Source: Tethya wilhelma (lineage: Eukaryota; Porifera; Demospongiae; Tethyida; Tethyidae). Taken from it: 64,000 nucleotides of DNA. The position numbers and the translations under genes are program-made. Location: positions 1 to 64,000 of the forward strand of contig CAXIPT010000056.1 in the NCBI GenBank assembly GCA_964030475.1. The letters are read 5' to 3'. The notes below the pieces were generated by a model that worked only from the letters and a program-made list of their open reading frames with translations, did not search any database and was not told the origin of the DNA. Numbering within the stretch: the stretch's first letter is position 1; every line of letters starts with the position of its first letter. Positions 5,431-35,607 of the stretch are shown in pieces.

Positions 5431-5431
5431 N

Positions 5432-10990: not shown

Positions 10991-11156
10991 ACGTACTACC
11001 GTACGTATGATAAACATTATTTACATGTACAATAAATGTTTCCCAAAAACTGATAAAATTTTATAAATCACTTCAATGTTGACAATTATACCCAACAGCT
11101 AGTAAAGTCCTTTTCAAAAACAAAACAAAATCAATCCAGGTTCTCCACATCAGTAC

Positions 11157-13327
11157 TCAATCTCCTCCAACTGGTGGTAGCAATGGCTCATATTCAGAGG
11201 AGTGATCCAATCGATGTGGAACAATAGGCTCTTGACGTAGTACACGGTTCTTAGCAGCTTGAAAAAGAGCTTGAGTACAATCAAATGAAATCATAATTTT
11301 AAGCACTTTGAAAATTATAAGGCAAACCAAGAAGAGTAAAGGCAGTGTTCCAATGATGAGTACTGGCATAAACCACAGGAAACCAACTGTAATATACTGA
11401 GTCATTAAAACGATGCAAATCACATACGGAATTGCACATGCTACAATGCCAAACTGAATAGCGTCAAATAAACTAAAAATGTTCTTGCTATAAGGTTTTA
11501 AGAGCGAACATAGAACACTTATAATTTCAGCAAATACAAGTAGAGTAATCCAACCAACAATAGAGGTCCACCCGAAGCAGTTTAATAAGAATAGGAAGAG
11601 AGAGCAGAAAGATAACTCGACACAGAAAGTAAACCCCAGCATACCAACGACAGTCAGGTGTTCCATCAATACCATCCTTGAAGTGGATGTGACAGACCCT
11701 AGCCAACTCAGAGAACAAGATCACATTCATTTTACATGTTTGAAGACACCTTTGGAAAAGTTTGTTTTGATAGAACAAAATGAACACCAGAGGAAGAAAA
11801 TTAAATAGTGCAAGAAACAACATAGCAACTATGGCATATGGTAAGTGAGACTTGCTCATATAAAGGACAGATGGTTCATTGTAGACTACAGTGGTTTTTT
11901 CACCACAGCCATTGTAGAGGTGAATTGGCCTCAGTAAACTGCTGGATGGCATTGTGTAGAACAGCTTGCAATAAGAAAGAACCATGAAAGTTGAAAACAA
12001 ATTCACAAGAGATCCTTTGATGTCCAGCCCTCTTCTAAACCAAACATGGATGGAATGGTTTTCACAAAGTAACTAGCACCTTACACCCTCTGTCATGCCA
12101 CTCAATGCAATAGTACACAACAGCTGTAACTACAAGGGGATACAATGCAACAAGATAGTCAAGGGTTATCACTTGAAGCATGTTCATTTTAGAGCTGATA
12201 CAAATTGAGGGGATCAAATAATGAAAGAAATCAAGATTCCAAAAGCCATAAAATGACAGCACAACCCAAAAGAGGGGCTTCAGCTCTTTGAAATTGTCAA
12301 GGATATCTCTATTGTCAAAGACTAAATAGCCAATTATCTCACAAAACATTATTACGGCATTAATGACAGGAGCATTTGCATTAATGCGGCAAATGATGAC
12401 TATAATACAAAAGAGGGTGGTTGGACCTAGTGCTGCTGTAATGTAGACAAGCCATTTGTATCTACTGTCAAAACACTTCACACACTTTCTCCTGAAGAGA
12501 ACAGCTGGCCCCAATCCTGGCATACACTCACTGCATAACAGACCAGTCCTATTGAACTCCTCTTCACATATTTCATTGAATTGGTGGACATTGGGTGGGA
12601 GGGTAACCTCTAGCTGAAGAGAAGCACTGCTGTTGTCTCTCCAGTTGTTGTAAGGACAAGAACCACTATAGGTAGTCTGACGTTTAGCATCAAATGAAAC
12701 ACAGAACTCCCGATAGAGTATAGTTTTGTTTACATTGCTGTCACATTGAACGTATACAATGACGTATGTTCAGTGGTGGATTTAGGGTGGTTCCTAGGGT
12801 TCCATGGAACCCCTCTTTCAGCTGAGACCTTGCATATTAATTAACTGTGGGAACTGGAAAAGTGCTAGCTGGAACCCCCCTTTCAACTTAAAAATACCAA
12901 AAGCAACTCAAAATCTCACTGTATAGCAATCTTTGGTTTAATATAATATAGTTTCTGACTCTTTCTTGCAGTTTTTTTCTCCATTCAGGCCTTGTTGTGG
13001 CAAAATCTAGCTGTCCGCACGCTAAAGGGGTGGGGCTTTACAAACAGAAGTGGGCGTGGCTTAGCTAAAAATTTCCCGCGCGTTGATTGGAACCCTTCTA
13101 TTTCAAATCCTACATCTGCCACTGATGTTATTTCCATACTGACATGTCTTCTTACCACCATTGCCTGGTTTGAACCAAGCTGGACATTGACTCACAATAT
13201 CACTGGAGATAGCACAAGAGTTTGTAGCTAAGATATTGGTGTGTTCTGAACTGACAAGTGATAGTGACATTACCAGCATGGCTATACTGATGCTATTCTC
13301 TCTTGGAAGTAACATTGTTCCAATCAT
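11157..13327 (-). pseudogene. Membrane-gene A: Cys-rich multi-pass protein, disrupted
   Basis: Paralogue of gene B (14046-15825). It starts near 13327 with a signal peptide (IAMLVMSLSLVSS), then a Cys-rich ectodomain. It is split at 12771-13124 by a MITE. The frame resumes through TGLLC/CMPGLGPAVLFRRKC and the first membrane helices. Breaks are a Trp-to-TGA stop at 12060-12062 (after CKVLVTL), a 2-nt loss just after it, and a frameshift near 11580. The C-terminus is conserved (QEPIVPHRLDHSSEYEPLLP). The intact form would be about 600 aa with a secreted Cys-rich head and roughly ten membrane helices. Such genes are abundant in sponge and cnidarian genomes and remain uncharacterised. Confidence 0.85.
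12771..13124. mobile_element. MITE, CAGTGG family, 5-bp TSD, inside gene A
   Basis: 354 bp with ends CAGTGGTGGATTTAG and complement-matching ATCTGCCACTG. ATGTT flanks both sides (12766-12770 and 13125-13129). Removing it with one ATGTT restores a sequence that aligns with gene C at 19225-19260. No ORF of its own. Four other copies in the window share exact 5-bp duplications, and a fifth has a one-mismatch pair. Confidence 0.92.
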
Positions 13328-14045
13328 ATTATATTTTTTCCGATTTCTTAACCCAATTTAGTTCTTCTGTTTGATTCAATCTGTTAAGGTATACTTGAAG
13401 CAATCAGGTTCAAATGGGGACAGTTTTATAAAAATGGGAACTAACTATAAAGCAATACACAACAACACCACTACTATCAATAACACAATCAGCATTGGCG
13501 GATCTAGGAAAATTAATGGTAGATTAGTAGAGTGTGTGGGATAATCCTTGCCTATTTAATGCAAAGCTCCACCTGCATGCATAAACTCTGTGCAAGTGGT
13601 ATGATACTACTAGCTCATGTGTACTATTCTGTGTAAGTATCTATGCCTTCAAGGTATACAGAAATAAGGTGACACCTGGACTCCAGATGTAATTTTTAAC
13701 CCCCAAAAGACATCTCTCAAGAGTTAAAAAATATCTTCAGTGGTACTCAAACTTGAGTCCATACAGTTAGGAAAATTTTGCTAACAAGTGCTGTTTAGGC
13801 AATAGAAAATATTGAAGGAAAAATTCTATGCACAAGTACTTTATTATTAATGCAATTATATATGCACATACAAAATAAACTCGTAATTAGCTATAGGGAC
13901 AAACTCAGACAATACTTCAGATAAGATAATCAGGATTGGCACTCGTAATTCTACTTGATGAATTGTTTGTTTGTTTTTGCGTAGACTTTGTAAACAAATG
14001 TATAATTTAGGTGCTCAAGTATCCAAGTTGTTTGCCCACCAGTGC
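13328..14045. other. Intergenic between genes A and B; MITE remnant
   Basis: No gene. GGCGGATCTAGGAAAATTAA at 13497 is a remnant end of the CAGTGG MITE family. Confidence 0.5.
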
Positions 14046-15825
14046 TCAAGCTGTCCCAACTGGTGGTAGCAACGGCTCATATTCAGAGGAGTGATCCAAT
14101 CGATGTGGAACAATAGGCTCTTGATGTAGCACACGGTTCTTAGCAGCTTGTAAAAGAGTTTGAGTACATTCAAAAGAAACTATAATCAGCAGCACTTTGA
14201 AAATGATGAGGGAAAGAAAGCAGAATAGAGGCAGTGTTACAAAGATGAGTATTGGCATGATTGAACTAACTGTTGCAAAGTGGATCTTTGAAGCAATCAA
14301 TGCATATGGTAATATGCATGCTGCAATTCCAAAGTATACAGCATCAAATAGGCTAAAAAAATTTCTTTTGTAAGGTTTTAAGAAAGCACACAATACAACT
14401 ATGCTCACAGTAAACACAAGTTGTAAAATCAATGTCTCCTTAATGATGGAACTTATCCAAACAGAGTTTGATAAAAGCAATATCAACATTCGATGCACAA
14501 AGTAAACCCCAGCGTACCAACGGCAGTCAGGTGTTCCATCAATACCATCCTTGTAATGGATGTGACAGACCCTAGCCAACTCAGAGAACAACATCACATT
14601 CATTCTACATGTTTGAAGACACCTTTGGAAGAGTTTGTTTTGAAAGAACAAAATGAACACCAGAGGAAGAAAATTGAACAGAATAAGAAACAACATGGCA
14701 ATGATGGCATATGGTAAGTGAGACTTGCTCATATACAGTACAGATGGTTCACTGTAGACAACAGTGGTTGATCTACCACAGCCATTGTAGAGGTGAATTG
14801 GGCTCAGTAAACTGATGGAGGTGTAGAACAACTTGAAAATAAGATAGAACTAAAAAAGTCGCAAACACATTCACAACAGATCCTTTGATGTCCAGCCATC
14901 TTCTAAACCGAACAAAACATGGATGGAACGGTTTCCACAAACTAACTAACACCTTACACCCTCTGTCATGCCACTCAATGCAATAGTACACAACAGCTGT
15001 AACTACAAGGGGATACAATGCAACAAGATAGTCAAGGGCTATCACTTGAAGCATGTTCATTTTAGAGCTGATACAAAATGAGGGGATCACATCACGAAAG
15101 AAGTCAAGATTCCAAATGCCATAAAATGACAACACTACCAATATGAAAGGCTTTAGCTCTTGAGAACTATTAAGTATACTTTTGTTGGCGTAGAAAAAAT
15201 AGACAATGTACTGACAGAATAATATTAATACATTCATGATGGGGGCATTTGCATTAATGCGACAAATGATGACTATAATACAAAAGAGGGTGGTTGGACC
15301 CAGTGCTGCTGTAATGTAGACAAGCCATCCGTATCTACTGTCAAAACACTTCACACACTTTCTCCTGAAGAGAACAGCTGGTCCCAATCCTGGCATACAC
15401 TCACTGCATAACAGACCAGTCCTATTGAACTCCTCTTCACACATGTCATTGAACTGGTGGACATTGGGTGGGAGGGTAACCTCTAGCTGAAGAGAAGCAC
15501 TGCTGTTTTCTTTCCAGTAGTTGTAAGGACAAAGTCCACCAAAGACAGTGTTTGTTATAGCATCGAAAGAAACACAGGACACTCGATAGAGTTTTGTCTT
15601 GTTTGTGTTACTGTCACATTGAATGTAACCACTCACTGCATTTCCACACTGACATGTGTTCTCATCACCATTGCCTGGTTTGAACCAAGCTGGACATTGA
15701 CTCACAATATCACTGGAGATAGCACAAGAGTTTGTAGCTAAGACATTGGTGTGCTCTGAACTGACAAGTGATAGTGACACTACTAGTAAGGTTACACTGA
15801 TGCTGTTCTCTCTTGGGCGTATCAT
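14046..15825 (-). CDS. Membrane-gene B: Cys-rich multi-pass protein, one frameshift
   Basis: The best-preserved member. The first 350 codons run from ATG at 15825: a signal peptide (VTLLVVSLSLVSS), then an ectodomain with paired cysteines (CPAWFKPGNG..CQCG, N-glycosylation sites NKT and NSS), the TGLLCSECMPGLGP motif, and about four membrane helices. A single-base difference near 14850 relative to gene A (TATTTTCAAG against TATTGCAAG) shifts the frame. The second half continues at 14046-14831 with about six more helices and the tail RLDHSSEYEPLLPPVG. The joined product would be about 600 aa at the cell surface. Given one indel it may be a recent pseudogene or an assembly error. Receptor or transporter role unknown. 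Confidence 0.82.
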
Positions 15826-16370
15826 TGTCTGAAATGTTTGTACAAACCGGTTATTGAATGCTCACTCGTAGTATTAACTTTCATAGCACTCGTGCTATAA
15901 ATCGCTAATACTACTCAATGTTGAGCTATAACCTATATCTGCAATATGAAATAATTAATATTCTGTTGAATTTTCCATTTTAAAATACCTTGTTTCCATT
16001 GGACTAAACAAACACCATTAAGCTAAACCAACTGCAATTACCATTTCATTTAAAGTAATCAACTACTACACCCACTAACCATGTGCATGTATTATGTGTA
16101 GAGTAACTGAGTGTACGTTTGGAATTGAAATATTCTTCCTGTACTTAATGTAGTGAGCATTTGTGACATTGATTATAGCCTAATCATGTTACTTTGTGAC
16201 AGAATACAAATGTATGAACAGACTATTATTAAAACAGTAGTGTTGTTTGTCATTCTGTAAAGTCCCCCAAAATATTTGTGAAAGTATCGCCACAAAACTG
16301 AAAGTGCTATTAAGTATAAATTACTAAAGTACATTTTAGTAAAGATTGTTATTAGTACTGTCACTGAATT
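15826..16370. repeat. 5' flank of gene B, duplicated at 18082-19050
   Basis: Strings such as GGTTATTGAATGCTCACTCG, GTTTCCATTGGACTAAACAA and CAAATGTATGAACAGA recur in the same order at 18082-19050, upstream of gene C. The second copy contains an extra block of about 430 bp. It likely contains the gene-family promoter. Confidence 0.8.
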
Positions 16371-17439
16371 ACGTATGGTGTATCTTCAATTTTATTATAT
16401 CTACCTGCATGTATAAACAAGAGCGTATACAAGAACTAAGACAGAGAGCATAGTGTATAATATTATATGAAGTAGCTGGGTAGGCTGGGTTTTGTGATAG
16501 TATAATGGTATTAATTTTTATCTAGTAAATCTTGTACTTTACTGTTTATCTTGGTGATTCAACCATACACAGTATACAATAATATCAGTACAGAGTTCTG
16601 TACTGTTCCTAATACTCCAGATATAAATCATGCTTTCATACATATCCATACCCTGGAGCATTACAGTTCTCCCATATAGGACTATTCACAATTGAGTAAC
16701 GAAATTATTTGACCAAGCTAACAAACAGATTCTCCAGTCTCAGTTGATGGTAATAGTGGAATGATTGGCACATAAATGGAAGTGGGTGTGGCTAAGAAAT
16801 TTGGGGGGCAAGAATCTTTATCCTAGCCTCAATATAATACGCCTGTATGTAACCCTGTAAATGTTGGATAACATGCAGGGTCACAATTTGCAAACACAGC
16901 TGCTAAGATGGCTGGTTGGAGAGTGTGGTAGTATTGGGTGAAGATATTTTAACCCTTTCTTAAGCTATTAAGCAATAAATTTAGCTCAAGCTTTAGCAAC
17001 CGTGAAACTTTACACTAGTATTGTAATGTGATTTGACAAAGTGTCTCAATGAGTATTCATATGCACTTAGGTAGTCAAGGTATGCACATCGAAATCAACG
17101 ATTTTATGATTCAAAAGTTTTAAGGCAAATTGATAAACGACACCTATTATTGCCATCACAAAAGAGAGGAAGGGAGAACTCTTGCTAAACTGGACGCTCT
17201 ATTAACTAATGAGATGGAGCTAACTTATACTAGTACACAGAAGTACTGAGCATATTACAGTAGCTGCTGGTGTACACAAAGGTAACATTGAAACTTGGTC
17301 ATAGTAGGGGTGTGTCATAAATGAGAATGCACTGTACTATTTTCTGGTAACAAATAATCTTGTACCACAATTACTGTTCTGTTCACCTCAAAAGTATACC
17401 GCCTAGTTTACATTGGCCATGTACACTGTCTAACTACTA
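16371..17439. other. Non-coding, no gene seen
   Basis: No open frame of interest. GTGGGTGTGGCTAAGAAATT near 16783 may be a decayed MITE interior. Confidence 0.4.
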
Positions 17440-17901
17440 TTCCCAGTACGGTAGTACTGGGTACATAGGAATGGCACGGATGGCCCATTAGCACAATACA
17501 AATATTCACGCGAATAACTCTGCAAAAACTGAGCGCTTGGCACTAAAAGGCTTCTTAAACTACTATTTAGCCGTTTCTCTTTCTATTGAGCCTAAAAACA
17601 TAGCCTAAAACCATCGCTAAAGTAACAAACTAAAGTATGCCAAACCTCCAATTTTCTCCATCTTCTTCTTCTTCTTCTTCTTCTTCTTCTTCTTCTTCTT
17701 CTATCTTGGAACGACTTTTCTCGAAGACCGCTCGCTTTCAGAAGCTGATTCTTGAACGAATAAACTTGGTTTCTTTGTCTTCACGTGCTTTTTGTATCGT
17801 TTATTCGTTTTTCTAGCTGAGTCGCTAGATACAAGACAAAAAGGGCCTTCTCCATATGGCAGCCATTCATTTCTATACTCATTAATAATTCATTAGCTAC
17901 C
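17440..17901 (+). repeat. R1 repeat copy ending at contig join
   Basis: Begins with the palindrome CCCAGTACGGTAGTACTGGG. It contains a TTC/TCT microsatellite (17662-17702) and ends at the N at 17902 in the CCATATGGCAGCCAT tail. Confidence 0.8.
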
Positions 17902-18159
17902 NTAAAGGCACAGTGAATACATGATAGAAATTGATGTGTCCAGCAAGTGCTCTAACTTTCTTTTGTATACCACGGAAGCCTTATACTTTAAAGACACCGC
18001 ACACTGAATAAATCTCGTATTGCATGCTGACCTCCCTGAACCTGTCACCGGTGCAATAAGTAGCTATGAAAACTTCCATGGTACAAACCGGTTATTGAAT
18101 GCCCACTCGTAGTATTAACTTTATAGTACTCGTGCTATAAATCATTAATACTACTCATT

Positions 18160-18600
18160 GTTGAACTATATATAAATTCTTCGTAAAATTTGGCAGTTAC
18201 CTCGTCACAGTCACACTGGTATAGTTCACTCCGTTGCTAAATTACAAAGTGTATACAATACCGTTCTTGCAAGGTCTAGAGGTCTCCTGATGTCTGCTCT
18301 CAAGTCTAAGTCTTCTCTCATCTCTGGTTTGTTTCTTCATTCTTCTTCTCGTCTGTATAACTATCTTGGTTATAACATTCAGCTAGGTCAGAAGCATTGC
18401 AAGCATTATTCAGAATCGGACAAACTGTGTGCAAGTTTTATCAGAGATGTTAGATGTAACCAGTCTGCTAATTGTCATTTAGACCATGAAGTTTATTGTA
18501 TATCTACATTATAACTATTAATTATCTACTTATAATTTGTTGTATGTATATGTTGTCGTTCTTGCTCCTCTTGATGGAGTGTTCATTATTAATATAATTA
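18160..18600. other. Extra block inside duplicated 5' flank
   Basis: Absent from the paralogous flank at 15826-16370. It contains a 74-codon frame (18290-18514), Ser- and Cys-containing, without a recognised family. It could be an insertion of an unknown element. Confidence 0.3.
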
Positions 18601-19052
18601 TTATATAACCTATATTTGCAATATAAATTAATTAATATTCTGTTGAATTTTCCGTTTTAAAATAGCTTGTTTCCATTGGACTAAACAAACACCATTAAGC
18701 TAAACCAACTGCAATTACCATTTCATGTAAAGGAATCAACTACTATACTGACTCACCATGTGCTGGTATTATGTGTAGAGTAACTGAGTGTATGTTTGGA
18801 ATTGAAATATTCTTCCTGTACTTAATGTAGTGAGCATTTGTGACTTGATTATAGCCTAATCATGTTACTTTGTGACAGAACACAAATGTATGAACAGATG
18901 ATTATTAAAACAGTAGTGTTGTTTGTCATTCTGTAATGTCCCCCAAAATATTTGTGAAAGTATCGCCACAAAACTGAAAGTGCTAACAAGTATAAATTAC
19001 TAAAGTACATTTTAGTAAAGATTGATAGATTTTATTAGTAGACATTTCAGAC

Positions 19053-19403
19053 AATGATACGCCCAAGAGAGAATAGCATCAGTGTATAGCCTTGCTAGTA
19101 ATGTCACTATCACTTGTCAGTTCAGAACACACCAATGTCTTAGCTACAAACTCTTGTGCTATCTCCAGTGATATTGTCAGTCAATGTCCAGCTTGGTTCA
19201 AACCAGGCAATGGTGGTGAGAACACATGTCAGTGTGGAAATAACATATGTCATTACGTTCAATGTGACAGCAATGTAAACAAAACTATACTTTATCGGGA
19301 GTTCTGTGTTTCATTTGATGCTAAACGTCAGACTACCTATAGTGGTTCTTGTCCTTACAACAACTGGAGAGACAACAGCAGTGCTTCTCTTCAGCTAGAG
19401 GTT
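19053..19403 (+). pseudogene. Membrane-gene C: truncated 5' copy, head-to-head with B
   Basis: Plus-strand copy of the first exon region. The ATG (19053) is followed after 11 codons by TAG, and the frame then shifts. The ectodomain reads SQCPAWFKPGNGGENTCQCG and SCPYNNWRDNSSASLQLEV, then stops matching at about 19403, where an LTR-like sequence begins. It is divergent from gene B with duplicated flanks between them, so B and C arose by an inverted duplication. Non-functional. Confidence 0.85.
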
Positions 19404-19504: not shown

Positions 19505-19606
19505 NTGCCAGGATCCATCGATCCATGTTGACTGATGCAAGTGTCGTGAAGACTCTGAGGACTGCTTTAACTCTCACCATTCTGGCTCAGTGGTGGCTGC
19601 ACCTAC

Positions 19607-22113
19607 ATGTCTAAGAGGGAGCTGCGGGCTCTGTTGGGAAACAAAAGCTACGGTCAATTGGCAACCAATTCCCCAACAAGCAGAGGACAAGGGCATCCTC
19701 GTAGGACTCCCTGTGTGCTGACTAGCCGACGCACACCGACTCATAACGATATGAAGAAACCCGATGATGGTTCTGAGGGGGAAGTGCAGCCAGGAGTGCA
19801 GCAGGAAACTGAATTGCTGCAGCAGAAGCTCACTGAGTTGCAGGAGCGATTGTCAGCTTCTGAAGTGGAAAGGACAAAGCTGAATGAGCAGCTGTTCCAG
19901 GCTTACCGGGAGGTGACGGAAGCCAAAACTTCAGGCCAAAGAGAGATTGAGGCACTCGCGATCGAACTCGAGAAGGTTAAGTCCCAAAATGAATTGGAAA
20001 CTTACAGGAAGCTGGAAGCGCTTAGGCAAGAACACACTCTCCACCTAAATTTTGAGAGGAACCAAGGGTTGAAAGAGCAGGAAAGAGCCGACCGATTAAT
20101 CAAGGAGATGCAGTCAAGATTTGAGCTTGAAAGAATGCAGTTTGAGGCCAAAATAGCTAGCCTCACGGAGCAAAAGAAAGAAACGAGCAAACCGGTTTGT
20201 ATGTCAAGCAGTTTGGAGCACCTCCCACTGGGGTCAGGGCACAATTGGAACCCGTGTGCCAGCTCCTTTCAACCCAGACAGCCCTCAAAGTTTGGGGCTG
20301 ATGAATGTGAATTTCAGCATCAACAACAACACGTAAGACACAGAGAGGCTTCGGAAACCTATTCAGATAGCCCAGTCATGAATGAAGGTGAAACCCTTCA
20401 CTAGCAGCAAGGTGGTGCTCATGAATATGCCAATCTTCAGACAATGGTCACAGCACAAGGACCCACCCAACTAGGTGGACCTCTACAATTGCAAAGAACA
20501 AACAGCCAAACATGCACAAATGTATTAACAAATCAACAAGCTGAAAGTCACTCCCTGAATCAAAGGGCTTTGAGTTATGGTCTAGACAACATTCCTCAGG
20601 TGCACAATGTTGACCTCCCAGGTCAAAGTGTCCAACAAAGTGTTCAAAATATTGATCCAAGAATGTCGTCAATGGGTAATCTGAGGGAACAAAGAGTTCC
20701 TATGTGCAGGTCACCTCCTCCACTTGAGCAAGGAAGTGTATATGCATCTGGAGTAGACCCCACGGTGAATACTTCTGGCCAATCTGGCCATGGTTTGGTA
20801 GAGTCAATGACCAAACTCTTACAAGCACAAACTCAAATGTTTGCTGCACAGGCACAAGCTGCAGCCATACAAACACTACCTCCACTACGCCCATTCAATG
20901 GAGAGGAACTTGATTAAGAGGATGGTAATTTTGAGCAGTGGCTCAAGTCCTTTGAAGAGCGAACCTACCTCGCTAAGTGGACGGAAGAACAAAAGCTCTG
21001 TCAGCTAAAGTTGCACTTAGAGAAGACAGCACAACAGATCTTCCAAATGCTGCCAGTCACGCAACAGTCTACTTATGCTGCAGCCATTGAGGCACTCAAA
21101 AGGAGGTTCCGTCCAGTTGACATAGAAGAACTAAGGGGGATGAAATTCCATCATCTAATGCAGGACCAGCAAACAGTTGAACAACTTGGTATTCAACTCC
21201 AACGTCTGGGTCAAAAGGCATTCCCCAATGCTAGTGGTCGAGAATTTGATCGGTTGTTGAAAGGTCGCTTCTTTCAGGCTCTACATGCCAAATGGCAAAG
21301 AAAACTCGGAGCACCTAAGACCACTGAAACATTCGGTGAGCTGTATGATAGAGCCCGAACCCTAGAACGGCAAGAGAAACAAATCTCTGCAAGTGCCGCA
21401 GGCAGAGGGGATGCCAAATCCTCTTCTGAGAGAGCCTACAAGCAAAGAACCAATACAAAGAATGTTGACAACAAACAAGCCCAGCCGGTGACACCCAAGT
21501 CCAAAGCAAACTCACAGAGCAAACCTGTACAGGCAGGGAATGAGCAAACCCAACAAAAGAAAGGTTGTTGGATCTGTGGGAGTTTCTCCCATCTAGCCAG
21601 AAATTGCAGAGAAGTCAAACTCGAAGCATCAGGGAAATCTTCTGGCCAAACTCAGTCAGCCAGAAATGCACAACTGACAGCTAAAGTTCAACCGGCTAAC
21701 CCTCCTAATCTTGAAGACCTAACTGAAGAGCAGCTGGAGACTCTCTTGAAACATCGGCGGTTAAGTAAGGAACAAGATCTCTTGGAGCAAACAAAGAATT
21801 CAGAGAGCATTGTTGACACTGTAGTGGCTCAACGGGAGATTGCAGGAGTAGTGGGACCTACTCTATATGTCGATCTTCACATTGAAGGTGTTGTCACAAC
21901 TAAAGCTATGGTAGACACTGGTGCCCAGTCAACCATCATTTCTCGACAACTTCTTCATGAGATTTCATGGAAGATGCACGCACAACAACGATCTGTTCCT
22001 GAGCTTATAGCTCCCAGTGTAAGACTATTCGGAAAGGAATGTAATGGAGTAAAACCCGAGGTGGATATTACCGCCGAAACAAAACTAAGTCTTGAAGTAG
22101 ACTCTAAATGTGC
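19607..22113 (+). pseudogene. Gypsy-1 gag and start of protease
   Basis: One reading frame with two in-frame stops (TAG at 20402-20404, TAA at 20915-20917). The first 265 codons are dominated by a long coiled coil (LLQQKLTELQERLSASEVE). After a Gln-rich linker comes the gag capsid-like region (FHHLMQDQQTVEQLGIQL), a single zinc knuckle CWICGSFSHLARNC at about 21570, and the aspartic protease motif MVDTGAQSTIIS at about 21908. The frame runs into the P-like transposon at 22113 and resumes in frame at 27390. Gag packages element RNA; the protease matures the polyprotein. Confidence 0.9.
22055..22113 (+). repeat. 59-bp direct repeat, left copy, flanking P-like element
   Basis: Identical over all 59 bases to 27331-27389. 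It is part of the Gypsy-1 protease coding region. Four bases (ATAG, 22114-22117) separate it from the transposon end. Confidence 0.97.
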
Positions 22114-22200
22114 ATAGATAATATATACGCTTCACGTGGATTGGAAACGCGATAGTTTACGGAGTAGTCCGCGGAGTTTGTATTCGCAGACACCGTAATG

Positions 22201-22861
22201 TATAGCAGCTGTGCTGCAGCATAACAAGTGTGTCTGTGGGCTGGTCTCTTGAGTGAAGTGGCAAACCCTACGCTAAGGTATGTTACTATGTAACCACATA
22301 CTTAAGTACAGTGATAGTTATGTAAACATTTTATTGGAAGATAGTACCAAGGTGCTTAGCCAAACCAGTATTTAGCTAATCTTTTATTATAAGCGAATCC
22401 TTCTTTGCAGCCATAACAACAGTTATGCAGGTCCAAAGCACCCCCTGTTTCGTTTTAAGCTGAGAATTGGTCTCTACTGTAATGGGTAGAGCTAAGTGCA
22501 TTGGGTGCACTTTGATTGAAATGGATGGGTACTTTAGTGGGTGATTTATTGTGCCAAACAGAGCATAGAAACTGCTATTAAATAATGTATACTTATGCAG
22601 GGTCAAGTCAGTACAAAATGCCTGTTAAGTAAAACCTACTTTTAAATATGTAAGATAAAAGGTACCCCAACCGGGTGGGCCAGCCTAAAAGAGAATTTAA
22701 AGTTCCTTCAAAAAGATATGCTAGTGCAAAGTTATCAAAATATCTATAGTCCATGCATACACTATAATGACATCATATTAATACACATGTGCATATGCAC
22801 AATACATGCACTGAGTCAAAATACCCTGATCTTTATATAAAATCTCTTGTAATCATGAAGG
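22201..22861. other. Left subterminal region and 5' leader of the P-like element
   Basis: No gene seen between the left end and the transposase ATG. It should contain the transposase promoter. Confidence 0.5.
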
Positions 22862-25308
22862 ATGGGCCGAACTCGTAAAAAGAGTTGGAGAAAGTTCTTT
22901 GATAGAAGAAAAAATGATGTCAAGAAATATCAGGCTCTTCAACAGGAAAAACGTGCCGTCCTATTGCCAATAACGAACACTCGAGTACCAATTAGCTTTG
23001 ACCAGCTGAAGAAGAGTATCCCAACAGTCTGCTTACCACAAGCATGGACAACCATCTCAACGGAAAGTCATGTTCAGTTGTGCCAAATGAAGGTTGCTCC
23101 AATGTGTGCCCCTTCTGTTGAGAGATGTGTTACAGTCGAGAGTGACATGGGTTGGACCGTGCATGTAAGAGGAAGAATGCTTACAAGAGGGGTGAATAAG
23201 CTTCTAGCACCATTGTCACAAAGCATTAGTGAAATTGAGAGTCTCCAGAAGATTGTCGAAGCAGTCTTACATGCCCCCATTTGTGCTGGTAATCCAGATT
23301 TAGAGTTTGTTGAACTAATCAAGAAGCGTGGTGGATCACTTGCCAATTCAAATGGAGAAATAGTGAGTGTTCTGGACTCATCAGGTGACGTTATTAACCA
23401 CGATGGTCAGGTATATGGGTGTACAGTTCGGAGATGTGATTGTGAAGTCATATTGCCTTCTAGGGACCAGCCACATTCCTCATCAGCGACGTCCTCTAGG
23501 AGATGCAAGAGCTGCATGAAATACCGTAACATTCTTCGTGCAATGGTGTTTAGATCAAAAGCAAGTTCAGCAGAAGCTAATGTAGCACATGATAGCCACA
23601 CAGCATACTGTCGACTTGATGAGAAAGAGAAGATCCAACGCCTCCGGAATCTACAAAAAGAGAAGAAGACATTGAGAGACAACAACAGTCATTTACAGCA
23701 GAAAGCAAGGAAATTTCTAGAAAATGGTGCTATTCGACTTTCAGATGCTGATTCAAGTGACATGCAGTCACTTGTAACTGATGTCACTGACAAGGTAGAG
23801 ACTGAGTTTTCAGCAAATTCATTTCAACGTGTCTTTTGGGAAGAGCAAAGAAAATTCAATGCTCTTAAGGATAGGCGTCAGATGAGGTGGCATCCTCTAA
23901 TCATTCGTTTTGCTCTTGCCTTGAAGTATTCGTCAACTAGTGCCTATCGTTTTCTTTCTGATGGATACTTATCTCTACCATCTGAAAGAACACTTCGAGA
24001 CTACACCCATTGGTGTTCAGTTGATGATGGAGTGCAAATTTCTTTCATAGAACATGCACGAAAGACACTCAGTGACGAAGGTGTTACCCCAGATCAGCAG
24101 CAGTTCACTCTGTTGATGGATGAAATGAAAATTAAGGAAGGTCTTGTTTTTGGCAAGAATTCCAGAGAGATCATTGGATTTACCAATCTGAGTTCTGTCA
24201 ATCACGATTTGGATGTGCTTACTGGTGAGTATACATGTACACATACTAAATATTAATATTTACACACAAACGGCACCCCAATTCTATAATTATATAGGTG
24301 ATACCACTGAGAGAGATGATGTTATTGCTAACTACCAAGTAGCAAAACAGATGTTGGTTTTCATGATCAGACCAATATACAGACCCTCTCTTTCGTTTCC
24401 TGTTGCTATGTACCCGGCATCAAATTTAAGTGGCGAATCACTGTACCCAGTCGTAATGGATGTAGTAGAGGCTCTGGAGTTGAATGATCTTCCTGTTCTC
24501 GCAATCACAAGTGATGGTGCTTCTCCCAATAGAAAGTTTTATAAAATGTGCAAGCTTCCGGGTGGTCCCAAAGTGACTCACAAGACAAGAAATCCCTATG
24601 CAGACGAGAGAGAAGTTTATTTCATTTTTGATCCTCCACATCTTGTGAAGACAGCCAGAAATTGCTTTAGTAATTCACATTCACACTCTGATACACGTGC
24701 TCTTGAGGTATAGTAGTGTGTATGTGTGTGTGTGTGTGTGTGTGTGTATACCCCAGTCATGTATATGTAAAATACATGTTGCTTCACAAACCACAACTCT
24801 TGTACATAATTGTGTGGTTTATTGTATTATGCAGAAGAATGGATACTCAATCTCGTGGAAGCATATAGAGTCTCTGTTTCTGTTAGAAACTTCAACAGAA
24901 ACACCTGGTGTAAGGCTGGCTCACAAGTTGACAAAAGAACACGTTTGGCTAAATTCTTTCTCTCGAATGAAAGTTTATTTGGCAGCACAGGTATTCAAAC
25001 AATTCAGTGCACTTAAAGTTCATGCTACATTTGCGCTTGAAATTCACGTTACAATTGATCTTATTTTGTCCAGATTCTTAGTGAAAGTGTGGCATGTGCA
25101 CTTGAATATCTTAACAACGATGACACTTTAGAGACGAGAAGATTTATTCGTCTTATGGATGTTTTCTTTGACTGTCTCAACTCAAAGAACACAATTGAAC
25201 ACATTAAGAAGAGAAAAGAAACTCGTGCTCCATTTAGAAGACCAGATGATTGGCGATTCAAAGTTAGCTATGTAACACACACACACACATACACACACAC
25301 ACACACAT

Positions 25309-25347
<39 letters not shown>

Positions 25348-25853
25348 CAGTGGCTTACCGATGTTTTTCTAAAATACCTAAAAGAGTGGAAAGAAGAAGC
25401 CAAGTCAACAACTCGAATTCCAAAAAAGCATAGGGGAAAGCTAACTTTAAGTAGAGAAACTCTTGAAGGATTAGAAATAACAGGTATATTATGCATATGC
25501 AATTGTCATGGAATTGTTGTCATGGTTTTTCACTTTCATAATAATATACTCTATACCCTGCTGTAGTGTTATCTTTCTGTGAGCTGGTACCAACACTCAT
25601 TGGCAAACCAAGCACTTATATACTTAGTGAGGTCTTCTGCCAAGATCCACTGGAGAGGTATTTTTCTAAACAAAGGCACCGTGGAGGGAGTAACGAAAAC
25701 CCAACTGTGGCACAATTCTGGACCAATTCAAAAATATTGATTCAACAACAACAAGTACGTAACGAACTTAAAACTATGAACGTAGAACCAAGCACAGCAA
25801 CTTCAGCAGCCTTGGCATCTCAACCCCTGAAAAAACGTCCACGAAAATCTTGA
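22862..25853 (+). CDS. P-element-like transposase, six exons, intact
   Basis: Exons 22862-24222, 24299-24707, 24834-24989, 25073-25260, 25348-25482 and 25567-25853 join in one open frame of roughly 850 codons, all with GT/AG borders. The N-terminal third has a Cys-rich patch (VRRCDCEV..RRCKSCMKYR) and a coiled coil. The RNase H-like core shows HPLIIRFALALKYSS, FTLLMDEMKIKEGLVF, ITSDGASPNRKFYKMC and FIFDPPHLVKTARNC, then a C-terminal LSEVFCQDPLERYFSKQRH..GGSNENPT segment. The last is very like P/THAP9 transposases, whose acidic residues cut DNA. I saw no THAP zinc finger at the N-terminus. Introns are short; one contains long CA repeats. Confidence 0.87.
24719..24748. repeat. (TG)n microsatellite in transposase intron 2
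   Basis: A run of TG repeats in the intron after exon 2. Confidence 0.9.
25275..25346. repeat. (AC)n microsatellite in transposase intron 4
   Basis: AC repeats with occasional AT or GC steps between exons 4 and 5. They encode nothing. Confidence 0.9.
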
Positions 25854-25935
25854 AAAAAAGTTCAGTTTTAAGTAAAACTTCTAGAAGCTTGTAATCATTA
25901 ATGTGTACATGTATACATGGTTATAAAACATTAAA

Positions 25936-27112
25936 TTAGTCAGCATGTGTATCCTTTTCTGATCCCTTAAGTTTTAAAGTTTTTCTTGTACCACGAGCAT
26001 AACTACCACTCTTGCATAATATATTAACTCCTTGAATATCCTTTCCAATAAGAGTAGGAATAAATTTTACGTTTAAATATTTTCTTGTAATGAGTTCAAT
26101 GTTTTCGATAAGTAGATATACTTCCTTGTTAATATGGAAGAGTCCCCCTCGATCTAATATTTGAGCCCATACCTGCGTGTACTCCTCACAACTATATGCT
26201 ATACAAGGTGGTTGGTTGTCAGCCTGCATTTTTTGTAGCACTTTTATGAACATCCTCCACTTTTTTCTTACGTCTTCATTTGATGCTTGTTTGGACTTTG
26301 ACTGATATTGGTGAATCAGCTTCACAGCCACATATCCGCCCATATATCGTATGACATTTTTCTCTCGATCACTTAGTGTGACCATAACGCTGGTATCTGC
26401 AGTAGCATCCAATACAGCTTGACGACCCATAGAAATCAGTTGATCCAACAGACGTTTTGAGATCATCTGGTACACCATGCTGCAATGCCTTTTCAATTCA
26501 TCTGATAAGCTAAGAGTCAATCCATTCCGCCATACATCCATCATTGTAAATCGTGTGGTATGAAACTCAGTCCAGATAGTCTTCTTCTTAGAGCTGGGTA
26601 GCTTGTACTTCTCTGCTTTCCTTATACAGGACTCCAGCATAGTGAATACATTCATTATAACGCTAACTGTGGACTGGTTGTGACTTGACATCTTGAGTGC
26701 ATCTATAATGCTGATAACACGGGCACCAAACACTGATCTACAAATGATTTCTTCTTTCTTCATATTTTCTAGGGTGTTAAGAAAGATAGTCATATATCCT
26801 CCTCCCAGAAAATCCTCATCACTAATCAACACTGTAGCACTATCAGATTCTGTACATTTATGGTCAACGGTTTGGCCATTCTGTTCCTGTGGTACCTTAT
26901 AACAAGATATAAAAGAGCTAGTAATAATTTTAATCTTTTTTGTAACTTATATGAAATAGTCTTACATCTTCTCTCACTAGTACATGTTCAATCACATTAA
27001 CTCCATCTTCTTCAATATATATTTGCTTTTCTATCAATTCCATATCACTGTCAACATCACTCATTTCTGTATCACTACTAGAAGTATCCCTCTCTACTGT
27101 TGCTTCAGCCAT
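25936..27112 (-). CDS. ORF2 of P-like transposon, unknown accessory protein
   Basis: Two exons on the minus strand: 26966-27112 (ATG at 27112, 49 codons, donor GTAAGA) and 25936-26895 (acceptor ATAAG, 319 codons plus stop). Together they make an intact 368-aa protein. The start is acidic (SSDTEMSDVDSDMELIEK). The main part is helical, with EFHTTRFTMMDVWRNGL, LSDREKNVIRYMGGYVAVKL and a basic C-terminus. The YMGGYVAVKL motif resembles the YxxGYVxxKL strings in C-terminal parts of P and hAT-type transposases, so it may assist target capture or dimerise with the transposase (inference). Its 3' end lies about 80 bp from the transposase stop. Confidence 0.75.
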
Positions 27113-27330
27113 TCTGACAAACTTCACAAGGATCCAAGAACGAACGAACAGTTGTTGTCAAGTAGTGTTGCAATTACAGCCGCATGCAAATTTAAAATTC
27201 CCGCGCCCGCCAATTGTATAGTGTACGGAATTCAGTAAATTTTCCGCCATACCCACCATAACGGTGTTTGCGGAGCGCGATTTTCCGTTATACGGAGGCG
27301 TTTCCAATCCACGTGAAGCGTATATATTAT

Positions 27331-27389
27331 CCCGAGGTGGATATTACCGCCGAAACAAAACTAAGTCTTGAAGTAGACTCTAAATGTGC
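27331..27389 (+). repeat. 59-bp direct repeat, right copy
   Basis: Identical to 22055-22113. It starts at the base after the right terminal inverted repeat, and the Gypsy-1 frame continues from it. Confidence 0.97.
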
Positions 27390-28268
27390 CATGGTACCTG
27401 TGTTGGTACAACCTAATAGTGAGCAGCCATGCCTGCTAGGAACTAATGCTGCAACAGTGTTAGGACTGAAGTTCCTACGACCCACAGGGGAACAACTAGT
27501 AATGGAACCAGCAGTGCAAGCAGGGGTAGATGCTGACCAAGGGCCAGCTCAAGCCAACGTCACCTTGGTACAGACAAGTACCATACCTGGTCGAAAGGGA
27601 AGGTTCTTAGAGGCCATAGTAGACCTGGACTTTGGTGATGGAGTAGATCTACTATTTGAGCCCGAAGGAAATGTATTGAGAGAGAAAGGAATTAGTCCAC
27701 AAGAATGTTTGTTGACCACAAATTCCAAGGGTACCTTGTTGATCCCACTCCAAAATTTCCGAAGTGAAAATGCGAATGTCGCTGGAGGCACAAAACTTGG
27801 AACTGCGAGCATTGTGGACAATACACCTGTCAACAAGTCCAAGGTGGAGTGTGTTCAAGCCAGCACTGAAGCATCACCTGAGGCTGCATATGAGAGGGAC
27901 AGGAGAGAAGTATTAAAGAGCCAATTAAGTCTCACTCAAGGTGAACTGACACCAGACTAATACAGACAATTGGAGGCTCTTCTCCTAGATAATAGCGATG
28001 TATTTGCTGTGAGCAGCTCTGAGCTAGGCCAGACATCCCTAGTGTCTCATAGAATTGATACTGGAGAACAACCACCTATTAAACAGCAACCCAGGAGAAC
28101 ACCATTTGTCCATCGAGAAAAGACAGCAGAACTCGTCGAAGAGATGCTGCACCAGGGCGTGATTAAATCTTCATCTAGTGCCTGGGCCAGCCCTGTTGTT
28201 TTAGTACCCAAAAAGGATGGATCAGTAAGATTCTGCGTGGACTACAGGCGACTAAATGCTGTCACAAA

Positions 28269-28633
28269 CAGTGGCGGATTTAGGCATGGTTCCATGGGTT
28301 CCATGGAACCCCCCTTACAGCTGAGACCTCGCATTATAATTAACTGTGCAGATTGGAAAAGGCCAAGCTGGAACCCTCCTTTCAACTTAAAAATACTAAA
28401 AGCAACTCAAAATCACACTAAATATTAGTTTTTTGTGAAAAATATAGAGTTTCTGACTCTTTCTTGCCGTTTTTGTCTTCCACTCAGGCTTTTTTGGCAA
28501 AATTTTTAGCTGCACGAGCGCTAAAGGGGCGGGGCTGTTGCGACCGGAAGTGGGCGTGGCTACATAAAAATTTTAGCGCGCTCTGCGCGCATTGATTAGA
28601 ACCCCCCTATACAATTTTCTAGATCCGCCACTG
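28269..28633. mobile_element. MITE, CAGTGG family, inside Gypsy-1 RT
   Basis: 365 bp, ends CAGTGGCGGATTTAGG and AGATCCGCCACTG. The flanking 5-bp duplication is ACAAA (28264-28268 and 28634-28638). Deleting the MITE and one ACAAA rejoins the RT frame exactly. Confidence 0.95.
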
Positions 28634-35253: not shown

Positions 35254-35607
35254 CAGTGGCGGATCTAGGAAATTGAATAGGGGGGTTCTAATCAATGTGC
35301 GCGAATTTTTTTACGTAGCCACTCCCACTTCTGGTCACAACAGCCCCCGCCCCTTTAGCGCTCATGCAGCTAAAATTTTGCCAAAAAAGCCTGAATGGAA
35401 GAAAAAACGGCAAGAAAGAGACAGAAACTCTATATTTTTCACAAAAGACTAATATTCAGCGTGATTCTGAGTTGCTTTTAGTATTTTTAAGTTGAAAGGA
35501 GGGTTCCATCTTGGCCTTTTCCAATCTGCACAGTTAATTATAATGCGAGATCTCAGCTGAAAGGGGGGTTCCGTGGAACCCTTGAACCCCCCCTGGATCC
35601 GCCACTG
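35254..35607. mobile_element. MITE, CAGTGG family, 5-bp TSD
   Basis: 354 bp in reverse orientation to the copy at 12771. Flanked by TATAG on both sides (35249-35253 and 35608-35612). Confidence 0.95.

Follow-up and report, generated by a model that had tools for sequence, protein, structure and literature searches.

How did a P-like transposon come to be flanked by a perfect 59-bp direct repeat of its target? The question is raised by a 64,000-nt stretch of Tethya wilhelma DNA (GenBank assembly GCA_964030475.1, contig CAXIPT010000056.1, positions 1 to 64,000 of the forward strand; hereafter the window), in which the transposon interrupts a Gypsy copy. By letter comparison, the 59 bases at 22055-22113 are identical to those at 27331-27389 (59/59), and the bases just outside the two blocks differ (A/T before, A/C after). 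An earlier note on this DNA had recognized the perfect repeat and offered two readings of it: either the lineage makes widely staggered target cuts, or a repair event duplicated the target. The second reading gained from our analysis, which found a 5-bp truncated end, one shared C at each junction and private bases in the repeat, while the first is rejected for this family: its other copies have 7-bp duplications, and by the earlier note's own test such copies refute a wide stagger. We give a little under an even chance to a specific form of it, in which a normal insertion at GTAAAAC came first and the 59-bp repeat is the repair scar of a failed departure.

The repeat was first traced to its source. 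Both blocks lie on the forward strand within Gypsy, and the last C of the left block doubles as the first base of the transposon. Before the element, the Gypsy reading frame that it interrupts (21011-22113, + strand) is 98% identical over its last 413 bp to a Gypsy copy at C2:1952215 (other loci are given as contig:position). The open reading frame (ORF) at 21011-22117 carries a DTGA motif, which we take to be the protease motif, and the left block lies downstream of it, in keeping with the earlier note's description of the 59 bp as Gypsy protease codons. A genome search with the right flank returned four places: two in the window and the Gypsy copies C2:84720 (98% over 570 bp) and C2:1952215 (97% over 509 bp). 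Both relatives hold the 59-bp stretch once and run on without a break at the point where the window is interrupted. The empty site therefore held one copy, as previously supposed, and the repeat is no older than the arrival of the transposon. Two positions in both blocks carry a base found in neither relative (GATATTACC vs GATATCACT). Because of these private bases, the extra block must derive from the window's own Gypsy copy or its allele, and copying from another Gypsy copy was ruled out.

To compare the element with its relatives, the genome was scanned with the outer 32 bp of the terminal repeat given in the earlier note, allowing up to three mismatches. The scan found 34 ends, and a reversed control found 0. 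Counting the window's, 11 copies have both ends; the remaining 12 ends are unpaired at this threshold. All 10 two-ended copies outside the window start with CATAG and end with CTATG, and the family terminal repeat is 37 bp long (CATAGATAATATATACGCTTCACGTGGATTGGAAACG), not 33 bp as had been thought. The left terminal inverted repeat of the window copy (22113-22149, + strand) is the complete 37 bp, also present at both ends of the copy C1:15184089-15189370, with CATAG intact at 22113-22117. The right one (27299-27330, - strand) has 32 of the 37 bp: it stops at ATTAT (27330), and the five outermost bases, CTATG, are gone. Among the 11 two-ended copies, the window's is the only one without CTATG. 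The ATAG reported as an oddity of the left side is element sequence, and it was seen only there because the right end lost CTATG.

The length of the target-site duplication was then measured in the other copies. The seven bases flanking each end agreed at 7/7 in 8 of the 10 two-ended copies, at 6/7 in one and at 5/7 in one, and none of the 10 had an exact 8-bp flanking match. In a control of 90 mispaired flank combinations, the maximum was 5/7, reached twice. One of the 10 is the 5.28-kb copy C1:15184089-15189370; eleven one-ended copies stand outside the tally, and four loci with single tips (L069, L074, L075 and L079) were left out of the counts. Six further loci (C3:7101940, C2:16788435, C1:16768945, C18, C1:6479274 and C11; L056-L059, L061 and L062) were also left out of the tally; they are nearly identical copies of a different repeat, with a fragment from the inner part of a small family member inside it. 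Two more loci were read by eye. In an eleventh copy, C9:395636-396456, 11 bp are deleted inside the left end, and GTAGAAG stands on both sides. The decayed ends at C6:6320180, above the mismatch threshold and thus outside the tally, are flanked by CTTGCAC and CTTGCAT (6/7). In a wider group that shares CATAGATAAT tips, three of the five end pairs taken had exact 7-bp repeats; of the other two, one was a plain failure and one has its ends 7.6 kb apart and is perhaps not one element. At the window copy, we found no ordinary target-site duplication, meaning a short sequence abutting both intact ends, since CTATG is absent and the abutting repeat is 59 bp long. Judged from these sequences, the family makes 7-bp duplications and the 59-bp repeat is not a 59-bp target duplication.

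Short palindromic relics provided a second source of target sites. CATAGATAAT and ATTATCTATG lie within 50 bp of each other at 165 places in the genome (reversed control 0), with the 10-nt tips required on both sides; there were 330 raw matches because the pattern is its own complement. The relics are 20-50 bp long (e.g., L065, L066 and L067), too short for whole elements, and we therefore read them as likely footprints of excision and end joining, left by several P-like subfamilies. P transposase is described as making an inner cut of 17 nt (PMC7776569), and a P-type transposase with such a long inner cut would leave footprints like these. If the relics are excision footprints, cutting and resealing is common in this genome. 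Forty-five relics (41 + 4) were examined, drawn from 50 listed places of the 165 and almost all on contig C1. An exact 7-bp repeat flanked 30 of the 45, a 6/7 repeat flanked five, and ten had less; one of these ten, L105, has an exact 8-bp repeat. Two further relics have the same 7-mer on both sides (GATTGAT at C5:4729224 and CTTATAG at C3:7737111).

Target sites were scored with a set of 61 7-mers taken from 21 family copies (11 two-ended and 10 one-ended), 9 sites of the wider group and 31 footprints, these being the 31 of 41 at 6/7 or better. Scoring was leave-one-out. The 61 targets show a palindromic preference, roughly GTNNNAC. GTAAAAC (22049-22055, + strand), the final C of which opens the 59-bp repeat, outscored all 61 targets, and only 0.08% of the window's 7-mers score as high. 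It would be the left copy of the original 7-bp target, of which only the last C would survive on the right, at 27331. With a matrix built from the 31 footprints alone, all from other loci, GTAAAAC again stood above 31/31 (0.11% of 7-mers). It was also the best of 173 7-mers around the empty site, with a score of 4.98. AAATGTG (22106-22112), which lies directly before CATAG and was our first idea for the original target, scored below all 61 and was dropped after the scoring.

With GTAAAAC as the target, both junctions can be read. A canonical insertion would read GTAAAAC-CATAG...TATTATCTATG-GTAAAAC-CCGAGG. The right junction in the window is TATTAT-CCCGAGG, which equals TATTAT-CTATG-GTAAAAC-CCGAGG minus 11 bp (CTATGGTAAAA), with one C shared. 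At the left junction, GTAAAAC and the next 58 bp of the empty site run into the intact CATAG end, and here too a single C is shared. The repeat is perfect over 59 bp because these 58 bp and the retained last C of GTAAAAC stand on both sides.

We propose the following events, in an order that we infer. The P-like element would have inserted ordinarily at GTAAAAC, with a 7-bp duplication. Transposase would later have cut both ends, while the cell still held the uninterrupted site on the homologous chromosome or the sister. The right end would have been resealed by end joining with the 11-bp deletion. The left chromosomal end may have invaded the empty allele, been extended by 58 nt beyond the insertion site and then been released, and the extended left flank would have been end-joined to the left end of the element. 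This full account, of a transposon caught leaving, with both ends cut, 58 bp of flank copied from the empty chromosome and the element resewn nearly whole into its own gap, is put forward tentatively, as something that may well not have happened in every part. The locus has the features that we looked for in a gap-repair scar: a tract identical to a nearby template, two private bases in that tract and one shared C at each junction. Gaps left by P elements are described as being repaired by two-ended invasion of the uncut sister, with end joining if synthesis is aborted (PMC8951532), and gap filling with template switching has been reported at DNA transposons in animals (PMC8277862).

Several points weigh against this proposal. 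It needs two abnormal junctions, compared with one for an insertion at AAATGTG, and a one-base match at each junction is weak. GTAAAAC was picked out only after 72 7-mers of the empty site had been scored. A matrix of 11 wider-group sites was weaker, with 1.6% of the window's 7-mers reaching GTAAAAC and 43% reaching AAATGTG. Good targets are not rare near the empty site: a score of 4.75 is reached by GTACAAC, 17 bp past the repeat, and one of 4.26 by GTAAGAC, 30 bp in front of the repeat. For this reason, we estimate the likelihood of a good target lying flush with the repeat by chance at several per cent. Some of the relics may have another origin; 10 of the 45 are without a 7-bp repeat at 6/7 or better. 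Lastly, the empty allele is a presumed template in an analysis of a single assembly.

The repeat could also have formed without integration by transposase. An element already excised and shortened at its right end could have been end-joined into a break with nicks 59 bp apart, and fill-in of the overhangs would then give the repeat. Such a capture would account in one step for the repeat, for the loss of 5 bp and for the single matching base at each junction, and the present flank, AAATGTG, is indeed unlike the family target. It would leave the best-scoring target flush with the repeat as a coincidence. Moreover, captured ends are usually trimmed, and the left end here is untrimmed. We consider capture unlikely.

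Rather unlikely, too, is an insertion at AAATGTG itself with a normal 7-bp duplication. The left junction would then be original. The right one would later have been cut, with loss of CTATG, and rejoined after the right chromosomal end had been copied 52 bp leftward from the empty allele. This needs a single abnormal junction, agrees with the complete CATAG of the left end and finds a second AAATGTG closing the repeat on the right, the place expected for a 7-bp duplication. The target scores speak against it: besides falling below all 61 targets scored, AAATGTG scores below two thirds of the window's 7-mers, beats only 1/31 with the footprint-only matrix and is merely average even with the smallest matrix.

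P elements undergo hybrid-end insertion, and transposition of this kind between sister chromatids, with a left and a right end from two sisters reinserted nearby, has a geometry that yields a one-sided duplication of the flank. The new junction should then have CTATG intact and be marked by a 7-bp duplication, and both are missing. A closed donor gap would also usually retain terminal-repeat tips, as the relics do, and none were seen at 22055. This origin is quite improbable. Still less probable is an assembly artefact, in which the second 59-bp block comes from a wrong join. Single N marks do stand on either side of Gypsy, at 19505 and 31615, and two of the six inspected break points of one-ended family copies stop at a single N. 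There is no N between 19505 and 31615, and it would take a coincidence for a wrong join to agree with both the 5-bp loss and the target motif. Target cuts staggered by 59 bp would explain a perfect repeat flanking the element, but the 7-bp duplications of the other two-ended copies and the broken right end of the window copy leave this idea hardly any credibility.

The genes of the element were examined for membership of the P superfamily. A transposase gene of six predicted exons (22862-25853, + strand) has a GT-AG splice model that stays open over 845-848 amino acids. Pfam matches on its exon pieces revealed an RNase H catalytic domain with a GTP-binding insertion domain: PF21787 scored 38.7 bits on the exon 2 piece (cut-off 24.6) and 23.4, under the cut-off, on the exon 1 piece; PF21788 scored 29.8 and 33.0 bits (cut-off 24.8); and PF21789 scored 33.9 bits (cut-off 24). 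The P-type helix-turn-helix (HTH) domain PF12017 was matched marginally, with 23.1 bits against a cut-off of 23. The element is called P-like, in agreement with the first assignment, because of these four families and the open splice model. Its 37-bp terminal inverted repeats and the family's 7-bp duplications (exact in 8/10) also agree with the terminal inverted repeats and 7- or 8-bp duplications of the superfamily. No THAP domain was found in the transposase exon pieces scanned; exon 1 was read from 22862, so an upstream exon is possible. For exon 1, the database contains 221 relatives at E ≤ 0.001, and exons 1-2 are 61% identical to the C1:15184089 copy.

A second gene, of two predicted exons, lies on the opposite strand (25936-27112, - strand). 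It was defined from open frames and from its counterpart in the C1:15184089 copy, and it matched no Pfam family. Over 338 aligned positions, the proteins of the gene and its counterpart are 39% identical. The window's protein is about 45 residues shorter near the end than that counterpart. Its 4 database relatives have the motif ExxxxRYxxGYxxxxL in common. The predicted structure has a mean predicted local distance difference test (pLDDT) score of 58.5, and no PDB match was found at E ≤ 0.001 (best PDB sequence match, E 0.88). PF12596, the P-transposase C-terminal domain, scored below threshold in one relative, P0003 (21.1 vs 22.6 bits), and was absent from the other five proteins scanned; as this is a single below-threshold match, no link to PF12596 is claimed. 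A precomputed PF22824 label on another relative, P0001, was not reproduced on rescan.

Several other copies have unusual ends. At C4:3213021 (L053:974-1040), the left end reads CTGTAAT plus 14 end bases, followed after a 20-bp filler by a second CTGTAAT with the end, which makes a 41-bp local repeat. A match near the C4 copy, CCCGAGGTGGAT, was considered as a sign of a shared cause and rejected: the 14-mer TACCCGAGGTGGAT occurs at 3 genome places, and their surroundings differ. At C126:5508 (L049:960-1050), a related terminal repeat seems to end with CTATG directly before ATTCAAT-CATAG, and two elements may share one 7-bp duplication there. The same ATTCAAT follows the right end at C1:22461768 (L054). 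Copies on C19 and C121 (L072-L077) have non-matching flanks, but their 7-mers pair with the flanks of other copies (ATATAAG, ATTTGAT). They are like the chimeric copies of Galileo and could reflect recombination between elements or misassembly.

Downstream of the transposon, Gypsy continues at 27390-28268 (+ strand); its first ~370 bp are 97-98% identical to C2:84720 and C2:1952215, and the remainder was assigned by sequence. The same Gypsy is then interrupted by a separate small repeat (28269-28633) with the ends CAGTGGCGG...CCGCCACTG. Stretches resembling it are found at 12788-12945 and, in inverted orientation, at 35403-35589. Upstream, the window holds a tandem array of related sequences at 11148-19403, numerous relatives of which lie at C2:16.12-16.23 Mb and C41 and reach at most 87% over more than 1 kb. 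For the neighbourhood at 12000-15700, no other match was longer than one of ~1.66 kb at 87% (40 of 313 candidates scored, one assembly). Single N bases, which may mark assembly joins, occur in the window at 5431, 8539, 17902, 19505, 31615, 48205 and 54112.

It is easy to mistake a long perfect repeat next to a transposon for the product of an exotic integration chemistry. Considered jointly, the family copies, the likely excision relics and the target motif make it easier to tell insertion and repair apart and indicate where the element first landed, and the window offers a worked test for other odd duplications. If our proposal is true, failed departures can pass for giant target-site duplications. 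The 165 P-like relic places are also a large natural set for measuring donor-cut geometry and repair. The process proposed here is ordinary, and it is the scar that is unusually readable; nor are 7-bp duplications new to the P superfamily, as they are already known from Galileo.

The proposed scar resembles those described from the repair of P-element gaps, where an excision break, copying from a template and end joining, often with short microhomology, also occur together (PMC8951532; PMC8277862). The scars described there involve synthesis into the element or capture within it, with flanking deletions, whereas here the flank would have been copied outside an almost complete element. With the Drosophila P element and P-like THAP9, the window element shares the RNase H domain with its GTP-binding insertion, the HTH domain and short terminal repeats. 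It differs from them in the scanned exon pieces, which are without a THAP domain, and in the family's 7-bp duplications, compared with the 8 bp described for those two (PMC7776569; PMC1562414). The earlier note had taken 8 bp as the rule for known P-superfamily transposases, but Galileo, a member of that superfamily, is reported to make 7-bp duplications and sometimes 8-bp ones (PMC4168063; PMC3573991). Galileo's palindromic target is given as GTATTAC, with the consensus GTANTAC (PMC4168063), close to GTAAAAC and to the GTNNNAC-like preference of the window family; the two also share a P-type transposase. Galileo is described as having chimeric copies with non-matching flanks, and terminal repeats of ~300 bp to 1.2 kb (PMC3573991), whereas the window family has terminal repeats of 37 bp ending in CATAG and a second, oppositely oriented gene. 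In its duplication behaviour, as judged by the flanks of its copies, the window family is like Galileo rather than the Drosophila P element.

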